This document shows, piece by piece, positions 3,487 through 47,844 of a stretch of 64,000 bases of DNA; position 1 is the first letter of the stretch; each line of letters starts with the position of its first letter. The stretch is from assembly GCA_037039685.1 (NCBI GenBank), contig JAWNGF010000007.1, forward strand, positions 2,666,001-2,730,000. The letters run 5' to 3'. The position numbers and the translations under genes are program-made. Source of the DNA: Ceratobasidium sp. AG-K. Its lineage: Eukaryota; Basidiomycota; Agaricomycetes; Cantharellales; Ceratobasidiaceae. Under the pieces are notes generated by a model, which did no database searches, was not told the DNA's origin, and saw only the letters and a list, made by a program, of their open reading frames with translations.

Positions 3487-3902
3487 TCAATTGATTGGAC
3501 GAAGTAACAATGTTATGGCACAGCTAGAACATTCCTTTCTCATAATCACTCGCCCTCCTGAGCTGCCTGGCAAGGTACCTAGGGATACAAACGCAAAGTC
3601 AGCAAAGTCCACAATCATCCATGAATCACTTACCCTACTGGCCGCCGCGTTGGGTTTGACGCTCTGAGGAGCGGCCTCTGAGGAATTAGAACCTTCTATT
3701 TGCTTAGGCAAGTCGGGATGCAAACCCTCCCTCTCAAATCCAACACGCCCGCCTGGAACATGTAAATCGCAGTGGGAGTCGGTAGGTGGTGGAACTGGAA
3801 CTGGTTCAATGGCGCCCTTGAATAATGCGACCATGACTCACGAATCATTCTCTGGGCTTTGCCTCCTGTAGACTTGCGACTAGTTTGCTTCGTTCTTGCC
3901 AT
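3487..3902 (-). CDS. Small protein with a histone H3 N-terminal tail (copy B)
   Basis: Exon 1 (3902-3842, 61 nt) encodes Met then ARTKQTSRKSTGGKAQR and MI. This is identical to H3 over residues 1-15 except A7 to S, and diverges after residue 15. The intron (3841-3795, 47 nt) starts GTGAGT. Exon 2 (3794-3487) begins LPPPTDSHCDLHVPGG and gives a protein of about 122 aa. A further GTAAGT at about 3635 could be spliced, producing a shorter form that ends in QEGE. Nothing after the tail resembles a histone. The start is exactly 1980 bp from that of copy A on the same strand. Between the copies, modifiable residues are conserved while several codons differ silently, which suggests the tail sequence has been under selection. 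Confidence 0.6.
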
Positions 3903-4856
3903 AGCTACACGTGAGAGCAAAGCGATGACAGCCGGTCGTTGGCAATGGTTGTTAGTGGAGCTCCTCGACGTTTGCATCCGGACCCCTGCTAGCTTTGGCG
4001 CCTATTTCCCTGGAACAATAATGGCCAAGAAGCCTTGTATAGCTGACGCGATCTGGCCAATTTCAGGAACAAAGAGATCCAAGACGGCGGACCGCAAATA
4101 ATTGGACGTGCTTTGTTGTACCCTCAGGCAGGCATTCAAGATTTTCCGCGAACCATGGGATATATGACCAGTCCGGCACAACGACCACCTTTCGCAGGCG
4201 TGGACAGAATAGCCCAACGCCACGCAGTAAGGTGCTAGTCAAGTCAATCTCCATCTATCACCGATGTATGTTTTATCGCGAGAGAACTACGCTTGAAAGG
4301 TCTGTCAAAAGTTTTCGCTGAAGGGTTGACGGACATCCATGGCGACATCTGTGCTGAACTGGCACCTAGATTGCCATATTAAGCGCAGCGTTTGTCCGTC
4401 TATAAGTGTAGATTACAACCGTCAATCAATATACATTTGTTTCTAGGTACAGATCAGATCAGTTTGGATATCAGATACAACAAGATGTGGTCAAATACTG
4501 GCAGGTTACTGAGTGATCTGCTCGTATTTTCTATGAATCTGCCTTAGCAGTATCTGACCGTATCACACTCGATCTGACCGTATCCCACCATATCTGCCGG
4601 GAGATACCCGAAGATATTTTGGAGTGATCTCCGGTGATCGCGAACTTACATCCACGTCGGAGTAATTCAGAACGAGCGTCAGCAAAAGAAGCAGCGACGA
4701 CGTGTTGCCACAGGCGCATCGGTTGCTTCCTTCGCAGCACGTGATGTTGTTGTTTCCCTTGGCACGTCACGTGGCAGCTGCGGTTTGTTTATCAGGACCA
4801 CGTGACGCGGTTTGTTGTTACTCCCAACCACCACACTCCCGGTCTCGTCGGTTGTG
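3903..4856. other. No gene recognised upstream of H3-tail copy B
   Basis: This stretch would hold the promoter of the minus-strand H3-tail gene B. A short minus-strand open stretch at about 4223-4002 ends in hydrophobic residues (IGQIASAIQGFLAII), but it has no supported splice partner. Several copies of a TCTGACCGTATC-like word occur at about 4540-4600. Confidence 0.3.
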
Positions 4857-5949
4857 ACGCGCCACCGCTGTGGGCTATGCCCGTCCGTTGAGCCCGGCCT
4901 CGGGTGGACAAGGTTGCGCGTGAACGACGAGTGACAAGACCCGGGCCCTCGACAGCTCTGAAGCGCGCTCCCCGGGATGAACATCCCCCGCTCATCTCCC
5001 AGACGACAACCGCGCCCTCGCCCAGCCGCTGTAGGCGCTGCCTGTCCGTTATGCCTTCGGGTGGACGTGGCTGGGCGGGTCGAGTGCAACCTCCCCGAAA
5101 CCCCCCAGACGACCGCGACTACCTCGCCCAGCCGCTGTAGGCGCTGCCTGTCCGTTATGCCTTCGGGTGGGCATGGCTGGGTGCGGTGGGCAACTCCCCA
5201 GCTCGACGACCGGTGCAGGATCACTCGCTCACCCAGCCGATGTAGGCATTGCCTGTCCGCTAGGCCCGATTCGGGTGGACTTGGCTGGGTGCGGTGAGCG
5301 CGTTCTTTCGACACGTCCACCAAATGAACACTCTCGCACCCGGTCGCTGTAGGCGCTGCCTGTCCATTATGCCCGTTGCGGGTGGACTTGGCTGGGTGCA
5401 GGGAGCGCATTCCCTTTTTTGATGGCCCAGGACGCGATGACTCCCACACCCGGCCGCTGTAGGCGTTGCCTGTCCACCATGCCCGTTTTGGGCGGACTTG
5501 GCCGGGTGCAGTGAGAATCCGATTATTCCATGGATGCAGGTCGGACGCAGGAACTCCCTCACCTAGACGATGTAGGCTCTGCCTGTCCGCTATGCCCGTT
5601 TTGGGTGGACTTGTCGGGGTGTGGGTGAGTGTGTGTAAGCTTTGCCACCACAGGACGCGACCACCCCTCACCTGGTCGCTGTAGGCGCTGCCTGTCCGTA
5701 ATGCCTGTCATGGGTGGACTCGGTTGGGTGTGGGGAGCGCACCCCATTTTTGATGGGCCAGGAGAACGATAACCCACTTACTCAGCCGTTGTAGGCGTTG
5801 CCTGTCCATTATACCCGTTTCGGGTGGACCTGGCTGAGTAGGCTTGAGCGGCTTCTTGACGGTTGGAAGCGGCCAATGGCTTCCTAAACCCAGCCGTCGT
5901 AGGCGCTGCCTGTCCATTTTGCCCTTCCTGGGTGGACGTGGCTGGGTTT
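4857..5949. repeat. Ten-copy array of a covarying three-way-junction hairpin
   Basis: Nine units start at 5019, 5125, 5230, 5336, 5447, 5560, 5669, 5779 and 5886 (pitch 105-113), and a diverged tenth lies at 4857-4921. Each unit is about 59-65 nt: an outer stem of 9-10 bp, a linker of the form GNYGT, a hairpin AGGC-N3-GCCT, then immediately a second hairpin with base GTCC/GGAC and tip CCCG/CGGG, then 2 nt and the outer strand again. Outer stems change on both sides together: CGCCCAGCC/GGCTGGGCG (unit at 5019), CACCCGGCC/GGCCGGGTG (5447), TACTCAGCC/GGCTGAGTA (5779) and AAACCCAGCC/GGCTGGGTTT (5886). In the 4857 unit the inner hairpin is GGGC/GCCC. The 40-50 nt spacers are unrelated in sequence. 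I recognise no known RNA, ribozyme or transposon end. Confidence 0.85.
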
Positions 5950-7302
5950 GTTGCCGCCATAAAGCCGTCGACCGTTGGACACTTTGCTCACGGTAGCCAA
6001 GCATTGTACGAGAGGAGGAACGTTGGCAAACCGCTTTCGGGGCCGATGAGACTCGCTCGGAACATTTGCGTGTGCACTGGGAGCAGGGTGTTACGTAGTA
6101 ATTTTGAAAATGGGTTTTGCGCATGACTTTATATCACAACCTTGAAATAATAATACAATTTTTGACCAAAGTCCTAGCAGTGCCATCAGCCTCGCAATAC
6201 GACCCTAGATATAAGAGGGCACTACGTGTGGCATAAAACCAGCGGACTTACCACGAGTATGCGCGATATTACGAAGTGCCCTGCCCTCAGAAGTCGTGAA
6301 ACACTACTCAACGGGCTCAGTTTTTGTTTCAATAGTCTGCTTTGGGACTGCTGTGTGATTGTAACCTTGACAGATGGAGGTCAGTCGCCACATCTGTTTA
6401 AGTGTCATTTCCTTGGACGCGGTTCGACTGCTCGGGTCGAGTTCATGGTTGAAGTCAAAACCAAGTTTGAGGAGGCCGGCAGTGGACGACAGAATGTATG
6501 TGGCAATCACGTATGGCCCTCGAGAGTGCTCGGAGCGAATCTATCTGTCAGCAAGCATAAGATCTTTCGAAAATTTTATCTCTATTTCTCGAGGACGATG
6601 CCAAGTACGCATGTGCTGATGTATCACGATGTGTCTCTAATGCATTTACTTTACCAGAGTAGGCAGTTTAGGAAGCGGAGAAAATATACTCGTTTCGCTC
6701 ATGGGGGGATACGGTGTTGAATGTAGCGGCGGAAGTGGGTCGGAAGATTCATTGTGTACCGATTAATGCGGCGCCGTATTATGGAGAGCAAACAGAGTTT
6801 CATAACCTAACCTGACGGAAATGACCATTATTGGTAGCATGCAGAGAATTGGTTAGCGCGGGTTAACCATTCAGCTCATGCGTTTTGCTCATCATCCCGA
6901 CTCGAAGCCAACAAGTGGGGTAGCTTGGCTCCTGGGACTGGCCTAGTTTCCCCCAAATAGATGTTGGAATTGCTCAGGATTCACCGCCAATCGGAAGGAT
7001 TGACATTTATCGCGAGTCATGAAACGCTTACAAAAACAGGTCCCCGTAAATGACATCTAGCGAGATCAAGCACGGTACCCAATGCCTCAAAGACTACTTT
7101 GTTGAGCCGTAAGCGCTACAAACCGCTGACCTATTGCAGGATAGTTGGTCACTCCTTCCAAGATCATATTTGGCCAAACAGGAGGGCGTTATACAGATGT
7201 GTGGCCAAATCGCAGCCTGCAAAAGGGTACGGATCATAGACTTCGTAGTTGATAGGACACGATTTTGTAGAAGCTTTATGTATCAAATGAGTAAATCAAG
7301 CG
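5950..7302. other. No gene recognised
   Basis: The longest open stretch (6226-6720, plus) has no recognisable domain and no clear splice sites, and I do not call it. No further hairpin units of the preceding array were found here. Confidence 0.4.
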
Positions 7303-12660: not shown

Positions 12661-13620
12661 CACAATGCGAACGGCGGTCGGGAGCTGGTCTCAATCTCAG
12701 ATGAACAATGAGTAGGGCATAGCGCCCTCAGGCAATCACCATGCGCATCACACGAACTGCGGTCGAGAGATGCCTTATGGGTAGAACCGCTCCAGCTGGA
12801 GTACAATATGCGACCAAGGGCATCAGATGTACAATGGGTTACTGCGGTCGAGAGGTGCTTGCAGGCAAACCCACCCCAGCAGGAGTGGAAGATGTATCCT
12901 GAGGTGCCTGGCGCGCAATGCGTACCGCGGCCGAAGCATGCGTGTGGGAACGCTTCCCGCATCAGGGACAAAACGGCTACCATAGACATATAACGCATAG
13001 TGCATATCGTGGTTAAGAGGTGCTTGCAGCCGACCGCATCCTTACGCACCAGGCGCACAGTGCGTACTGCGGTCGCAGCATATGTGTGGGAACGCTTGCC
13101 GCATCAGAGACAAACCAGCTACCATAGACATATAATGCATCGTACATATAGTTGTTGTGAGGTGCTCGCATGCAGACACATTCGTGGGCACCGGGTGCAC
13201 ATTGCGTACGGCGGTCGCAGCATGCCTGTAGGGACTCTTGCCGCATCAGAGACGAAACGGCTACCACAGATATGTAATGCATTGTCCATACATTGGTTCA
13301 GGGGTGCTTGCAGGCACACACGTCTTTAGGCACCGGGCGCACATTGCGTACTGCGGTCGCAGCATGCATGTAGGAATGCTTGCCGCCTCAGAGACAAAAC
13401 GGCAAACATAGCCATATAACGCATGGTACATATCGTGGTTGAGAGGTGCTCGCAAGCAGTCCTACCTAGACAACCATGGACTGTGCTTCACTACAAACTA
13501 GGCGGATAAAGCGAACTGCAATCGGGGAATGCTCGCGACCCTTCTTTTGCAGCTCCGTCATAGGAGCTCCAATAAACAAGACATGTGATGCGAACTGCGG
13601 TCGGGACCTGCTTGCGGGCA
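12660..13620. repeat. Tandem satellite with 142-bp period and CGGTCG core
   Basis: The core CGTACTGCGGTCGCAGCATG and variants recur at 12921, 13063, 13205 and 13347, exactly 142 bp apart. Weaker half-units with TACTGCGGTCGAGAGGTGC lie at about 12680, 12755, 12840 and 13595. Each 142-bp unit seems to be two related halves of about 71 bp, the second carrying GTGGTTGAGAGGTGCTTGCAG. The core differs by one base from the GTACTCCGGTCGCA word repeated at 18.5 kb and 24-27 kb, so the two repeat families look related. Confidence 0.8.
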
Positions 13621-33008: not shown

Positions 33009-36000
33009 ATGGGAAAAAGAAGAGTCCCCTGCGATTGCGGCGACTGCGACATTAACAAGCTGGTGACAACCGAGACGCGGAAGCGTCACCTCCAAGGAAA
33101 TTGGCGAAAAAAGCGACGTAAATCGAGCGAACGTCTGGCAAGGGCACGGTGAGTAATCCAATTTACTATCAATTAGTTATGCTAAATTACAATAATACAG
33201 AGAGAGCTTTCGTCGCCATTTATCCAGTAGGGCGTCGCTCAGCGCACGCCGTGGATCCGCCGTTGCTCAGTCCGAACCCGCCGGCGGCGTGCACCCCATG
33301 TTTGATAGCACCCCCGGACCCCCCGATCTACCCCTCCTTATCCCCGAAAATGCCCAGGTCCCCGATCCTATACCCGAAGTTGACCTAACTCACATCTGGG
33401 AGCAAGTTATGCGCGCACATCCGCATACAGACGTTGGCGATCGGACTGTAACAAAGTCCACCAACCTCTCCACCAGCGATTCAGATTTGACCGCTGGACA
33501 CCCCGGATCTGATGCATCCGACCCTGGTAATGAGGGATATAACCCGGCGACTGGTGGCTTGTCGCCCGAGGCACAGCTGCGAGCGGGATTCACATTAGAT
33601 GCGGCAAGGAATGGTAAGTCTCTCTGGTGCATTTGACACTATTCTGGCTGATTTCTATATTAATAGCACCTCTTTCTATTACGCCTAGTATCCTAGACGA
33701 TATTCTATCATTTAAATTTATAGTTCAGTACAAGCCAACTGTCCGTAGCTACAAGGCAATGCAAGACGCTTTTATCCACAAAAAGTCCCACGGCCGTTTG
33801 CGATCGCTGAAACTTGTGCGCGCGCAAATGCTTTCGCTCTCGGCGCTAACATCCGTCAAGTATCATTGCTGCAAGAACTCTTGCGTCTGTTATACCGGCT
33901 ATCTAGGCGATTTACAGGAATGTCCTTACTGCAACGCACCTCGACTGAACCCGGCTGGCCAACCATACTCAGTCTTTTCTTATGTCCCTATGATCCCCCA
34001 AGTCCTTGCCCTTTTCCGCAACAAATCCACCTGCGAGAAGCTTGAATACCGCACAAATTATCAGCGATCGGGCGACATAGACGAGATCTTCGGCGGCGAG
34101 CAATATGAGAGACTAAAACGTACCAAGGTGGAGATAGACGGCAAAAAACAAAGTCATTATCACTTCGAGGATCGTCGCGAACTTGCACTTGGGGTTTCAA
34201 TCGATGGCTTGTGTCCCTTCAAGCGTCGAAAAAACACCTGCTGGCCGATAATTCTCATTAACTATAACTTTCCACCCGAAATCCGAAACCTACTAGAGAA
34301 TATCATCTGCGTCGGCGTAATTCCCGGCCCACATTCTCCCAAGGATATTAATTCCTTTCTTCAGCCGCTTATTGACGAACTGATTGAACTTGCAATGGGC
34401 GTCGAAGCTGTTGATATGCTACGCGAGGAGGTTTTCTTACTGCGCGCTCATATTCTGGCTGTCTTTGGTGATATACCGGCAATCACTAAAGTACTCGAGT
34501 TCTTGGGCCACAATGCTCGATTCCCTTGCCGATTCTGTATGCACGAGGCAATCTCAGGCCAGACATCTGGGGGCGGCACGCATATGTATTGCCCATTACA
34601 TCAACCTGACGGAACGATCGCCGACCCTCTGGACTTGCCTCTGCGAACGCATACAGAAACCCTAGTGCAGGGGGACGAGGTCCTTCGTACACCAAATGAG
34701 CACGCGTGCTCCAAACTGGCAACAACCTACGGTGTTAAAGGGGTCTCACTGCTTGCTAGACTCTCTTCGATCAGCATTCCAGCCTCGTTCCCTGTCGAAG
34801 TGATGCATATGGTGTGGATTAACTTGATCCCCCAGCTTGTCGACCTATGGACCAACGACTTTAACGATATCGACAACGGCGAAGAAACGTACCAAATCGA
34901 CTCGGTACTCTGGGCTCTTATTGGAAATCTATGCGAAGACTCTGGCTGTACGATCCCTTCTGCATTCGGGTGTCGTGTCCCCAATCTGAAAAAGCGCGGC
35001 AATTTTATCGCCGAGTCCTGGATGCTCTTCGCGACTCAGCTTGCCCCTTGCTTACTACGCCGTCGCTTTGCTAAGCGATCATATTATACCCATTTTGTCC
35101 GCCTAATAACTCTGGTTAAGATGTGTGTCGATCATCAAATTTCTAGGGACGACATTCCTACGATTCGCAATGGATTCGCCGAGTGGATTCAAGAATATGA
35201 ACGGTGGGTGAGCGCATACATACACTTGTCGACCAGAAACTTATCGTTGAATAGCATATACTATCAATACAGTGCCAATCGACTACAAACATGCCCCGTC
35301 AACGTTCATTATCTCCTGCACATCGCCGACTCGATCGAATTCCTAGGCCCCGTCTGGGCGTATTGGGCCTTCCCGATGGAGCGATACTGTAGCTTCATCG
35401 GTGCTTCAGTCCGGAGCCGACGATACTACTCGGCAAATATTGCACGGCGAATCTTGGATTGTGCTCAACTGCGAGTTATTCGCGAGGTGTACGACCTTCA
35501 TGATACGATCGTGCTTCGTCACCCCAGGGATGCCGAGGACGCCGAGGATGAAGGTCAGGCAATTGAGGGCGACCGACTTCCAGATTGTAAGTAACCTAAT
35601 AATTTACTACGTTTTTTCTTACGCCCGCATACAACTTAGACCCGAATTGTGCGCTGTTGACCCCCCGTTCCGAACGACTGATGATGACAGAGCCGCTGCG
35701 CCGAAAAATCGCCAAACACTTAGTAACAGCATACGAAACCACATTCCAAGTGGCCAAAGCTTATGTTCCTGCGTCGGTTATGCAATGGGGACGGATGCGC
35801 ATCACGGGGGAGGTGATTTGATCCAGGCACGGGGCTACCACAAGCTACGGGAAGATGGGCGTGACGCATCTTTCATTCGAGTAAGAGTCGCATTTATTGG
35901 TCAAACTATGCTAATATAATTATAGTACGAGCTCGAGGTCGATCGACTCGCACATCTACCAAATGCGCCCCCCGACTTTATCACGCGGTCTTTTTACGGG

Positions 36001-44137: not shown

Positions 44138-47100
44138 CTAGAGACCAACCAATCGGAAGATGAGGTAAAGTAACGAGCCCAGGAATCGCTGAACAAAAGT
44201 TAGTATCGGTACCTCAAGCAGGAGGGTAATAAATGCGTACAATCAAACTCAGCCCCGCTCTGCGCAAACGAGTCAGCCGAGACATCAACATACGAATCAA
44301 ACGGATACTCACAGTGCGTAGAACAAAAAGGACAAGTACGGGTTGAACACGCCGCCCGTTGAAGCGTCCGCCCACTTTTTCGTCAAGTCAAGGAAGAGCT
44401 CGGACGTGAAGAAAATAATCATGGCCCTACGAGGGATGAGAATGTGAAACGAGCGAAAGTTTGCGACTCACATATTCGTACCCATCCATACGAGCACGAC
44501 GTTTGTTCGCGAGTTGCGGTCGTTGTCCATCTGTTTCGTCGCGCTACACCAGGTGTCAGTCATAAATCTCCCATCCGACCACGCGACTCACGCATCACGT
44601 TTCTCCTTGACCTCGGCGGGCTTCTGACGCAGGACGTTTCGACTGGCGGCCCACATCGAGTCGATGTCTTCCTTGACGGTGGGGACCCGGACCTCCATCA
44701 TGTCCTTGCCGTCGTCGCCCTTGACCTTTTTCGCGCCTCCAAGGTCCTTGACCGCGCCGTTGTCACCCTTTGTACCCCAACCGAGATCGTGCAGGTTACC
44801 TACGCTTCAAGTCAGTTTATGAGGGTGGACGATACCAAGTCACTTACACATTGCGTACATCACTGCGTACGAGAAACGAATGGTTAGTCCACTGAATTCA
44901 AGTTTAGGATGATTGGCTTACTCAGAATGTTGACGTCTAAATTGCGAAATAAATTAGCAACCCGCACGGAAACCTAACACGAGTACTTACAGCTCGGCAA
45001 CAAGAAGAGATACTCTGCAAGCATATGGTCAGTCTCGATGGTCCTCCTTGGCCAGCATTACTCACGGAGGAACGAGGTAAACATGTGCCACGGCTCGCCG
45101 TGCATGAACGAGCCGATAAAGTATAACCCATAGGTCGCGGCGAGCGAGATGACCTATTTCGGGTGAGTCCAGCGATATTGGTATTTACGGCGTACTCACG
45201 ATATCACGGAACGTTCGGTTTTCCAACAGCCTAGCAATATCAGTAAGAATTACGGCCGAAGAAATAATGCCACTTACTTGTCGAAATTGGCCCATTCGGA
45301 GAGCGAGTGTGGAACGGCCAAGTACACCGTGAACCCAGCGCACCAGAGCGTGATGATGTTACAAACGCCGAACAGTATGATCGCCGTGCCATAAGTGATT
45401 TTCGAGCCCTATCGATGAATGAGAATGAGCGCGGTGTCAATCATCTTCGAATTAGACTTACCTGCGGCCGATTTCCGAGCGAGCAGATCAGAACGACGAA
45501 CAACAACGCAATGTACAACTGCAGCGCGCGTTAGCTATATTCACCAGGCCATCCGATCAACGTACCTTGAGGATGACTTCGAAAACCTTGACACCGGCAC
45601 TGTGACCCAGAAAGTTGAACGCGTCCTGGTCGGCGTTGGACGTAGCCGAGCTGACCAGCTATCGAGTCGGTGAGTACGAGCTTTCTGAGAGAATAATAAA
45701 CTTACAAAGTAAAATGCCAGGTAGAAATTCGCGAGCGAGGTCCATGCGAATAACATTTGCACAGCGTTGTACAAAAACTCGAACTGAAGGATAATCTTGC
45801 GGAAAAAGCCTTGGCCGGACGTCCAGATGCGATGTTGGAATGTCGTCGCGTGAAGCGCAGCAAAGAACGAGCCGTTGAGCCAGCGACGACGTTGGGAGAT
45901 GAACTCGGCGATCTACCAGAGGGTAAGAACGAGGACTAGGCGAGCATAGGAAAACATACGGTCGTAGGGACATCGGTCGACGCCTTGGCGCTCTTGACGT
46001 ATTTCAGCCTATACCAACGGTCAGTCATCATACCAATAACCCATCCGCACACTCACGTCCATGCTTCCTTCTTCTTCGTCACAATCTCAAAGCACAAAAT
46101 GCGATCCTCGGCGAGATACATGTTCCGCTCGAACAAGCCCGCACCGTCTGATCCTCCTCCGTGCATCGTCTCGCCCTTGAAGTACATTTGCAGGGGCTTG
46201 CCGAGTAGCGCCTTGTATCGATACGCCGAGAACGCGCCAGGCAAGACGGAAATGTAACCGAAAACGGATTCGAGGGGCTTGTCGAGGATGTTGGACATCT
46301 TGTACTCAAAGTTTTGCGAGGCGGCGAGGGGCGACTTGAGGAGGATGGAACATCCGCGACCAGCGTCGACGCAGATCCTGGGGAGGGTTAGGACGGAATG
46401 GGGTTGAAACGGGGTGCACTTACTCTCCGCATGCGCCGCCGACACCAGGGTGACTGTCGAAGCATTTCCAGAGTTCATAGATCGAGGTTCCGGTGGGCTT
46501 TGTACCAACGTCAAGCAAGATACAAACTAGGAAGAAATTAGTCATTAATTAGAGCGTGGATTCAAGGGCTTACCATTCGGTCTGATGAGTGGGCCGAAAG
46601 CATTGAAGAACCACCGATGCGAGTTGAGCTTCTTCTTGTTCTGCTCCTTGAGACAAAACAGAATCTGGATCGGGGTCCCGCCCTGCGCAACCTCGCCCGA
46701 GTCCGAGACCACGACGGTGGAGGTGTACTCGAAGATATGGGCCGTAACGTCCTTTCCGGCAACCTCGTCCTTGGCGATACCGTCCTGGTAGCATCCCATG
46801 AGCTGGAGGACCTTGAGCGTGCGCTGGTTGATCTTGTTGCGACCGTCGGATACGACGCAGACAACGACCTGCAAAGGGTAAGTCCGGGTCGGGACGCAGC
46901 CGAGTGGCGCACCTTTTTCCAGCCCTCTGGCCCCCATGTCTTGCTCTTTGTCCGGCTGCAGAGATGGGTGACGTTCTTGATGACGGCGTTCATGGTCTTG
47001 ACGAAGAGGACCTCGTCTTCGTTGTACATGGTCATGACGATGAATAGCTCGGTTTGTCGGTTCATGAGGTAGGGACGGAGAGAGTATTTGGAGGTTGCAA

Positions 47101-47844
47101 AGTCGTCGGGGTCGCAGGTAGCCGCAGTGTATCGCATCTTGGTTTGTTCTTCGGCCGTGCAGCCAGGGGGAACGATCGCCGAGGGGACCGGGACGTCGAG
47201 CACGAGATTGCCTTGCTGGAGCTCGATGCGGCGGACGGACTAGAAAGGGATTAGCCGGGTCTAACAAGTATTTGGGCACTCACCCTACGCTTCATCATCT
47301 TGTCGCGAGCACTCGAATAGCCGGTATGCGAGTGCTGGCTCCCCCCGGGATGGGGTCGGAGGCCGCCGCCCAGACCAGTCTGGTACGGCTGCTGCGGGGG
47401 ATAGTCGACTACTCCGCCGTTGTAGGGAAGAGAAGGGACTGCGGGGACCTGGGTCATCTCGTACTGCTTGTTGTACGGGTCGAGGTGCGACTGGGACTGG
47501 TAGGTCTGGTACGACTTGGTGCTGCGAGCGTCCCAGTCCGAGTGTCCATCGTTGGAGTAGGCATAGCTCTGCTGTTGGTAGGGCTGGTTGTATTGCTGGT
47601 TGTGGGACATTGGGTCAGCGAGTGGATGGGCCGAGGTGGGCGAGTGGGCGCGGTAGGCAGGGGCGTAGGGAGACGAGCCTGTCAAAGGCTGGTGCGGGCT
47701 GTGGAGGGTAGCAGTGCTCTGGTTTGCGCTATAGGAAGGAGCGGGAGACGCAAACGGGTCTTGTTCAAGGCGGGGGGTGGAGGGAGAAAGTGGGTTCGAG
47801 TAAGGACTGCCATGCGAACCATGGTGCTGGTTTGGATACGCCAT
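44138..47844 (-). CDS. Chitin synthase (class I-III type)
   Basis: Membrane glycosyltransferase that polymerises GlcNAc from UDP-GlcNAc into cell-wall chitin. From the start at 47844 ([20 protein letters not shown]), a Pro/Gln/Tyr-rich cytosolic tail of about 190 residues precedes the catalytic region: [61 protein letters not shown] (the EDR motif) and [14 protein letters not shown] (the QRRRW catalytic motif). Later short exons code for membrane segments ([49 protein letters not shown]) and a conserved segment WGTKGDNG. The last exon ends [16 protein letters not shown] with TAG at 44138-44140. There are many phase-compatible introns of about 50 nt. An upstream in-frame ATG at 47859 is an alternative start. 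The gene looks intact. Confidence 0.9.

Follow-up and report, generated by a model that had tools for sequence, protein, structure and literature searches.

What is maintained at a locus where one small foldable element is repeated ten times: a protein, a DNA site or an RNA? This question is raised by a region of contig 7 (C7) of Ceratobasidium sp. AG-K, whose genome comprises 53.6 Mb in 17 contigs (C1, C3 and so on). The window, that is, the whole 64,000-nt stretch which was analyzed, corresponds to C7:2666001-2730000, and positions without a contig name refer to it. An earlier note had described a ten-unit array at 4857-5949 and this array is indeed present there, with all units in direct order on the plus strand and 60-65 nt long. 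Reading the units confirmed the three-way-junction plan proposed at the same time (an outer stem of 9-10 bp, AGGC-N3-GCCT and GTCC...GGAC). From 5' to 3', each unit consists of the left arm of the outer stem P1 (9-10 bp), a 5-nt junction which is mostly GCTGT, P2 (AGGC-NNT-GCCT), P3 and the right arm of P1. P3 itself runs from GTCC through a bulge of 5 nt and a GCCC...GGGT tip to GGAC, and two bases separate it from the right arm of P1. The units are as follows, with their scores by a model named R1.

4857 to 4921, plus strand: unit 1, diverged, P1 starting ACGCGC, P2 GGGC/GCCC; 72.6 bits
5018 to 5077, plus strand: unit 2, tip cUUCGg; 79.1 bits (match 5018-5078)
5124 to 5183, plus strand: unit 3, tip cUUCGg; 73.2 bits (match 5124-5184)
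5229 to 5292, plus strand: unit 4, bulge differing in the copy on C4 (GTCCGATAGG vs GTCCGCTAGG); 82.2 bits
5336 to 5399, plus strand: unit 5; 85.5 bits
5446 to 5509, plus strand: unit 6; 82.2 bits
5559 to 5622, plus strand: unit 7; 77.8 bits
5668 to 5731, plus strand: unit 8, weakest P1, absent from every in-context fold tried; 73.4 bits
5778 to 5841, plus strand: unit 9, P1 with T-A and A-T replacements; 85.1 bits, folding z-score -4.17
5886 to 5949, plus strand: unit 10; 77.9 bits, folding z-score -3.57

Start-to-start steps along the array are 161, 106, 105, 107, 110, 113, 109, 110 and 108 bp. The spacing of 105-113 bp initially reported hence holds for the eight later steps, while unit 1 starts 161 bp before unit 2, and the diverged unit with the GGGC/GCCC hairpin is this first unit and not the tenth, as had been stated. 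Spacers measure 43-49 nt in eight of the nine gaps and 96 nt in the remaining one. Their sequences, described as unrelated, are not all so: the spacer between units 5 and 6 and that between units 8 and 9 are 77% identical and, among the 66 pairs drawn from the nine spacers of this array and three of a second array (see below), at least eight exceed 56.6%, the highest identity reached by shuffled spacers. This likeness suggests that the array has partly grown by duplication of several units at a time. A repeat within a protein was rejected, as the steps run out of frame, only two of the nine being multiples of three. On the antisense strand, a frame of 342 codons (4682-5707) is open over the array; no antisense frame of at least 110 codons covers the second array.

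Searching the genome with the units returned as its first DNA matches C7:2649241-2649435, on the minus strand, which led to a second array.

C7:2649242 to 2649667, inverted relative to the first array: four intact units, recognized by reading and with R1, 21 kb from the ten-unit array

Degenerate remnants of units lie beside it, as judged by eye. One of its units, v4, was outside the training set of R1 and still scored 59.7 bits (E 2.6e-16), all true units falling between 59.7 and 85.5 bits. Between the two arrays, unit cores share a mean identity of 75%, whereas their flanks do not align above shuffled sequences (of 500 shuffles, 74 equal or exceed the score of the upstream flanks and 300 that of the downstream flanks). 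The two arrays are located in inverted arms which also carry a pair of paralogous genes, named M in this analysis:

C7:2651223 to 2651831, minus strand: left copy of gene M, without Pfam or PDB match
C7:2662409 to 2662939, plus strand: right copy of gene M

The two M proteins are 64% identical and their synonymous sites are saturated (pS 0.81). Assuming that one duplication gave rise to both the arrays and the M pair, as we infer, the unit cores have been held by selection.

Comparison of the units supports that P1 has been kept by compensatory change, as the paired differences noticed earlier in the outer stems had implied. In a set of 13 units (the ten of the first array and three of the second, v4 being excluded), 96.6% of 294 cells are paired and both sides have changed in 11 of the 23 pairs; neither value was reached in any of 500 shuffles, and sliding the 3' partner by one to three columns lowers pairing to 28-45%. 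Since shuffling ignores the kinship of the units, substitutions were also simulated along a tree that joins all 14 units. Across these, 123 of 126 cells of nine P1 pairs are paired, with 20 Watson-Crick types (this count excludes the outermost pair, column 1 with 65, which is unpaired in 6 of 11 cells of the 13-unit set). None of 2000 phylogeny-aware simulations equaled either the pairing count or the number of Watson-Crick types, whether substitutions were spread over all columns or confined to P1. The R-scape analysis suggested in the earlier note, run here as an R-scape-like test on 14 sequences, gave a divided answer. When all pairs of columns were compared, no pair reached E<=0.05, the best being 5-61 (E 0.065) and 2-64 (E 0.395), both in P1; when the test was restricted to the 23 pairs of the structure, the same two passed (E 0.0008 and 0.0048). 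Compensatory change above the phylogenetic null, by which structured RNAs are judged, is therefore established at the level of the whole helix. P2 and P3 are nearly invariant and conserved in sequence and, as they hardly vary, covariation says little about their pairing.

Which strand, and which molecule, is under selection? The tolerance for G-T pairs reported earlier proved to be polar: read on the plus strand, the 13 units contain 18 G-T pairs and no A-C (a count that omits the variable outermost pair and column 36, which is mainly G-T; over all pairs, 29 vs 1). On the complementary strand these would be 18 A-C mismatches, which argues for selection on the plus strand in single-stranded form, and against both a site for a double-stranded DNA-binding protein and a palindrome effect at the DNA level. 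The latter could arise without any function, by template switching at quasi-palindromes, a mutational process known to yield paired changes in inverted repeats and which would keep the arms matched. It is expected to show no strand preference, contrary to the polarity observed, and P2, P3 and the unpaired bases are conserved between two arrays whose flanks cannot be aligned; this explanation, already disfavored, is hardly credible. What has been shown comprises the fold and its conservation, the polarity of its strands and the existence of the second array. Together, the compensatory changes, the 18:0 polarity and the diverged second array support the earlier proposal that a shape of RNA or of single-stranded DNA is what selection maintains.

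The G-T polarity fits RNA and single-stranded DNA alike. The sense strand folds better than the antisense strand in 13 of the 14 units, and the cUUCGg tip of units 2 and 3 would suit RNA. Overall, we regard it as very likely that the units function as RNA. The competing idea, that hairpins of single-stranded DNA are recognized by a protein of replication or transposition, accommodates the polarity equally well and draws on the inverted order of the two arrays, which lie some 21 kb from each other in a duplicated block. The block containing both arrays is repeated, inverted, on C4 (99.86% over 38.5 kb), and C9 carries only the four-unit array (99.05% identity to C7 over 18.7 kb), the match between C9 and C7 being interrupted at C7:2654608 and resuming near C7:2675214; the left end of the C4 and C9 matches is the edge of the compared stretch. 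The duplicated segments are C7:2636001-2674542, C4:4151911-4190467 and C9:1716951-1735664 (99.05-99.86%). The left part of the duplication is also about 100% identical to C8:217759-223824 and C1:44997-49653, the two of five candidates that were scored, and the break on C9 is marked by 1145-nt tandem repeats, with a 340-nt array near C9:1712438-1714798. The duplication thus extends beyond both arrays, which are not its ends, and the inverted order is explained by the diverged inverted arms and their paired genes. In addition, among mobile elements, the type tested was KDZ. The 14 matches to its transposase in the genome all fall outside the array blocks, even the nearest (C9:1828934) being some 98 kb away from the array on C9, and a KDZ transposon was ruled out on this ground; the ends of the block were not found. 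A single-stranded DNA function consequently appears quite improbable.

The other genes of the block are of chromatin type in part. It contains a Sir2 gene (PF02146, E 8.6e-19), pieces of SNF2 below cut-off, the orphan genes X, M and W (names given in this analysis) and, between the arrays, a Tet_JBP oxygenase frame (C7:2655698-2656537; E 6.9e-7, below the curated cut-off), which also lies between the arrays on C4. In fungi, Tet/JBP genes are tied to KDZ transposons; the Tet_JBP gene flanked by the arrays, on C7 as on C4, recalls this association, from which the blocks differ in that all 14 KDZ matches lie outside them. Genome-wide, Tet_JBP occurs at six places, including C1:60987 and C3:67037, on stretches with relatives of X or M. 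Near-identical copies of X are present on C3 (two), C9, C13 and C17, and a diverged piece lies 7.7 kb from the start of C5, a contig whose positions 1-80 are (CCTAA)n, a telomere repeat of the TTAGG type, which is unusual for fungi. Relatives of M are found on C1, C3, C4, C8, C11, C14 and C17; beyond the pair in the inverted arms, nine relatives on other contigs have 39-42% identity and one 22%, with broken pieces on C9. This gene set would belong to a family of duplicating, partly subtelomeric blocks. Within the window, two minus-strand frames, 1716-2039 and 3696-3977, contain a start resembling the histone H3 tail (MARTKATNRKSTGGKA... and MARTKQTSRKSTGGKA...) and diverge after about 22 residues; the first matched nothing in Pfam at E<=0.01, and from their sequences both are read as remnants or H3-tail mimics. 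The window further contains a tandem array with a 142-nt period and about 3.9 copies (12896-13454), a tnp2-type transposase (33618-35591) and a chitin synthase (46565-47239).

Are the arrays a fixed part of such blocks, and do they occur elsewhere? A paralogous block on C3, with Sir2-like frames recognized by eye, has no array in the 17.9 kb between X and M, where the full model run without filters gave at best 14.7 bits; the arrays are hence confined to some blocks. Pattern searches of the 53.6-Mb genome revealed no third type of array, although a more diverged one could escape such patterns. All 27 zero-mismatch matches to the core belong to either array or to one of the array copies, as do 22 of 23 matches to a P3 pattern (control, 1) and 32 of 47 matches to a P2-P3 pattern (control, 7), the other 15 being scattered with no two within 10 kb; with up to two mismatches, the core has at least 108 places vs 49 for a reversed control. 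Outside this genome, the core pattern occurs once each in 54 stretches of viral contigs. On all 54, R1 gave at most 24 bits (E 0.00037, for stretches preselected for the core), far from the 59.7 bits of the weakest true unit, and these were taken as chance matches. A longer pattern had no match in bacterial or archaeal contigs. A lack of conserved relatives had been named in advance as evidence against the initial reading; relatives were found inside the same genome, the sequences searched beyond it being viral, bacterial and archaeal contigs.

Upstream of each array lies a triplet of CACGTG boxes, and a presumed transcript can be drawn around the first array:

4738 to 4804, plus strand: three promoter-like CACGTG boxes (4738, 4768 and 4799), 53-119 bp before unit 1
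C7:2649817, 2649843 and 2649877: CACGTG triplet of the second array, about 150-215 bp upstream of the first of its intact units
4830 to 6160, plus strand: presumed transcript; judging by eye, AATAATAATA near 6146 might signal its 3' end

Each triplet spans at most 67 bp. These two are the only triplets within 70 bp in the window and in a 50-kb segment of C7, and none was seen in 300 shuffles of each, for a motif which was chosen after viewing the sequence and is commoner in the window than in shuffles (29 vs 17.5). Along with the G-T polarity, the shared triplets hint indirectly that the arrays may be transcribed. Just upstream of the first triplet, positions 4400-4636 correspond to a DNA transposon end, with matches of 96% and 89% on C14 and C4, weaker ones on C6 and C12, and 70-bp copies in inverted orientation at a distance of about 3.9 kb.

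If the units act as RNA, do they belong to a known family? Rfam 15 (4227 models) gave no match at gathering score over the whole window and none at E<=1 over 4700-6100. A known RNA family was excluded by both scans, in agreement with the earlier statement that no ribozyme or riboswitch of this plan is known, and the fold thus appears uncatalogued as judged by Rfam. Hammerhead ribozymes occur as tandem arrays of small three-way junctions, which the units resemble in size, in tandem order and in a junction with near-invariant unpaired bases. Each unit might therefore be a new self-cleaving ribozyme, yielding a ladder of about 105-113 nt. Since neither a hammerhead nor any other ribozyme model of Rfam matches the units at E<=1, and no mark of a cleavage site is apparent, we consider this very unlikely. 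The main rival is a polycistronic precursor, processed as snoRNA or tRNA clusters are: one structured RNA of about 60-80 nt would be released per unit, and the spacers would be lost. Like such clusters, the array consists of compact RNA units at about 110-nt spacing, every unit is a closed module and spacers evolve faster than units. Unlike these, the units are all of one type, and Rfam reports neither snoRNA nor tRNA nor any other family in the region at E<=1. Moreover, a spacer length held at 43-49 nt in eight of nine gaps would be needless for free spacers, and it makes a multivalent RNA more likely than small ones released singly; a polycistron is possible but doubtful.

Folding predictions help to determine whether one long RNA carrying these modules is plausible. 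Folded alone, all seven units tested of the ten adopted the three-way-junction plan, with energy z-scores from -1.06 (unit 5) to -4.17 (unit 9), so that energy by itself is weak evidence for some units, unit 5 for instance. When the presumed transcript was folded whole, with no limit on pairing distance, the local P1 was kept in only four of ten units of the first array and two of four of the second (v2 being read one base out of register), probably owing to cross-pairing predicted between neighboring units. With pairing limited to 80 nt, P1 was kept (mean probability >0.5) in seven of ten and four of four units, respectively; limits of 100 and 150 nt both gave eight of ten and four of four, and a limit of 300 nt four of ten and three of four. 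Unit 8 failed at all limits. Co-transcriptional local folding would consequently be needed. A stem that may run outward beyond P1, past a small loop, is suggested, no more, by the flanks: true pairs of flanks fold better than swapped pairs, with p = 0.011 over all 14 units, 0.076 over the ten of the first array and 0.056 without unit 1.

Collectively, these data point, with about an even chance, to two paralogous noncoding RNA genes whose transcripts would carry repeated three-way-junction modules, i.e., a long RNA built of repeated modules. This reading draws on the compensatory changes in P1, the G-T polarity, the better sense fold, the score of v4 and the shared CACGTG triplet; on cores which remain 75% identical while the synonymous sites of M are saturated and the flanks unalignable; and on steps that are not a constant multiple of three and the retention of P1 under the 100- and 150-nt limits. 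Counted against it are the loss of P1 in the unrestricted fold, unit 8, the negative all-pairs covariation test, the weak energy of unit 5, the post hoc choice of CACGTG, the C3 block without array and the 342-codon antisense frame.

For such an RNA, the following mechanism can be proposed, in which transcription, a protein partner and scaffold action are what we infer. The ten-unit array would be the body of a noncoding RNA gene on the plus strand, with the four-unit array, 21 kb away, as its paralogue. A promoter with the three CACGTG boxes would drive a transcript of about 1.3 kb, within which each unit would fold locally into a three-way junction. A near-invariant core, together with a P1 that needs only pairing, looks like a protein-binding or catalytic module; P2, P3 and the junction probably bind a protein, P1 acting as a clamp required only as a duplex. 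Repetition would then make the binding multivalent, in analogy to scaffold RNAs that carry repeats, such as roX and the Xist A-repeat. The likeness lies in tandem structured modules, here in a presumed long noncoding RNA, that are conserved relative to faster-evolving spacers, and in the chromatin-type neighbor genes; in contrast to roX and Xist, the array matches no Rfam family. The transcript may thereby act as a scaffold, possibly with the chromatin-type proteins of the same block. A further proposal, that it is a new class of eukaryotic structured RNA residing in a mobile or duplicating block of chromatin genes (Sir2, Tet/JBP, SNF2 and the H3-tail-like frames) and marking or silencing chromatin with their products, is unlikely, albeit conceivable.

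To our knowledge, new structured RNA families with clear covariation are rare in fungi. The present one is repeated ten and four times at two paralogous loci. It has a promoter motif that lends itself to testing and a core that probably binds a protein, and it is located among chromatin-type genes, so that its transcript, its partner and its function are directly testable.
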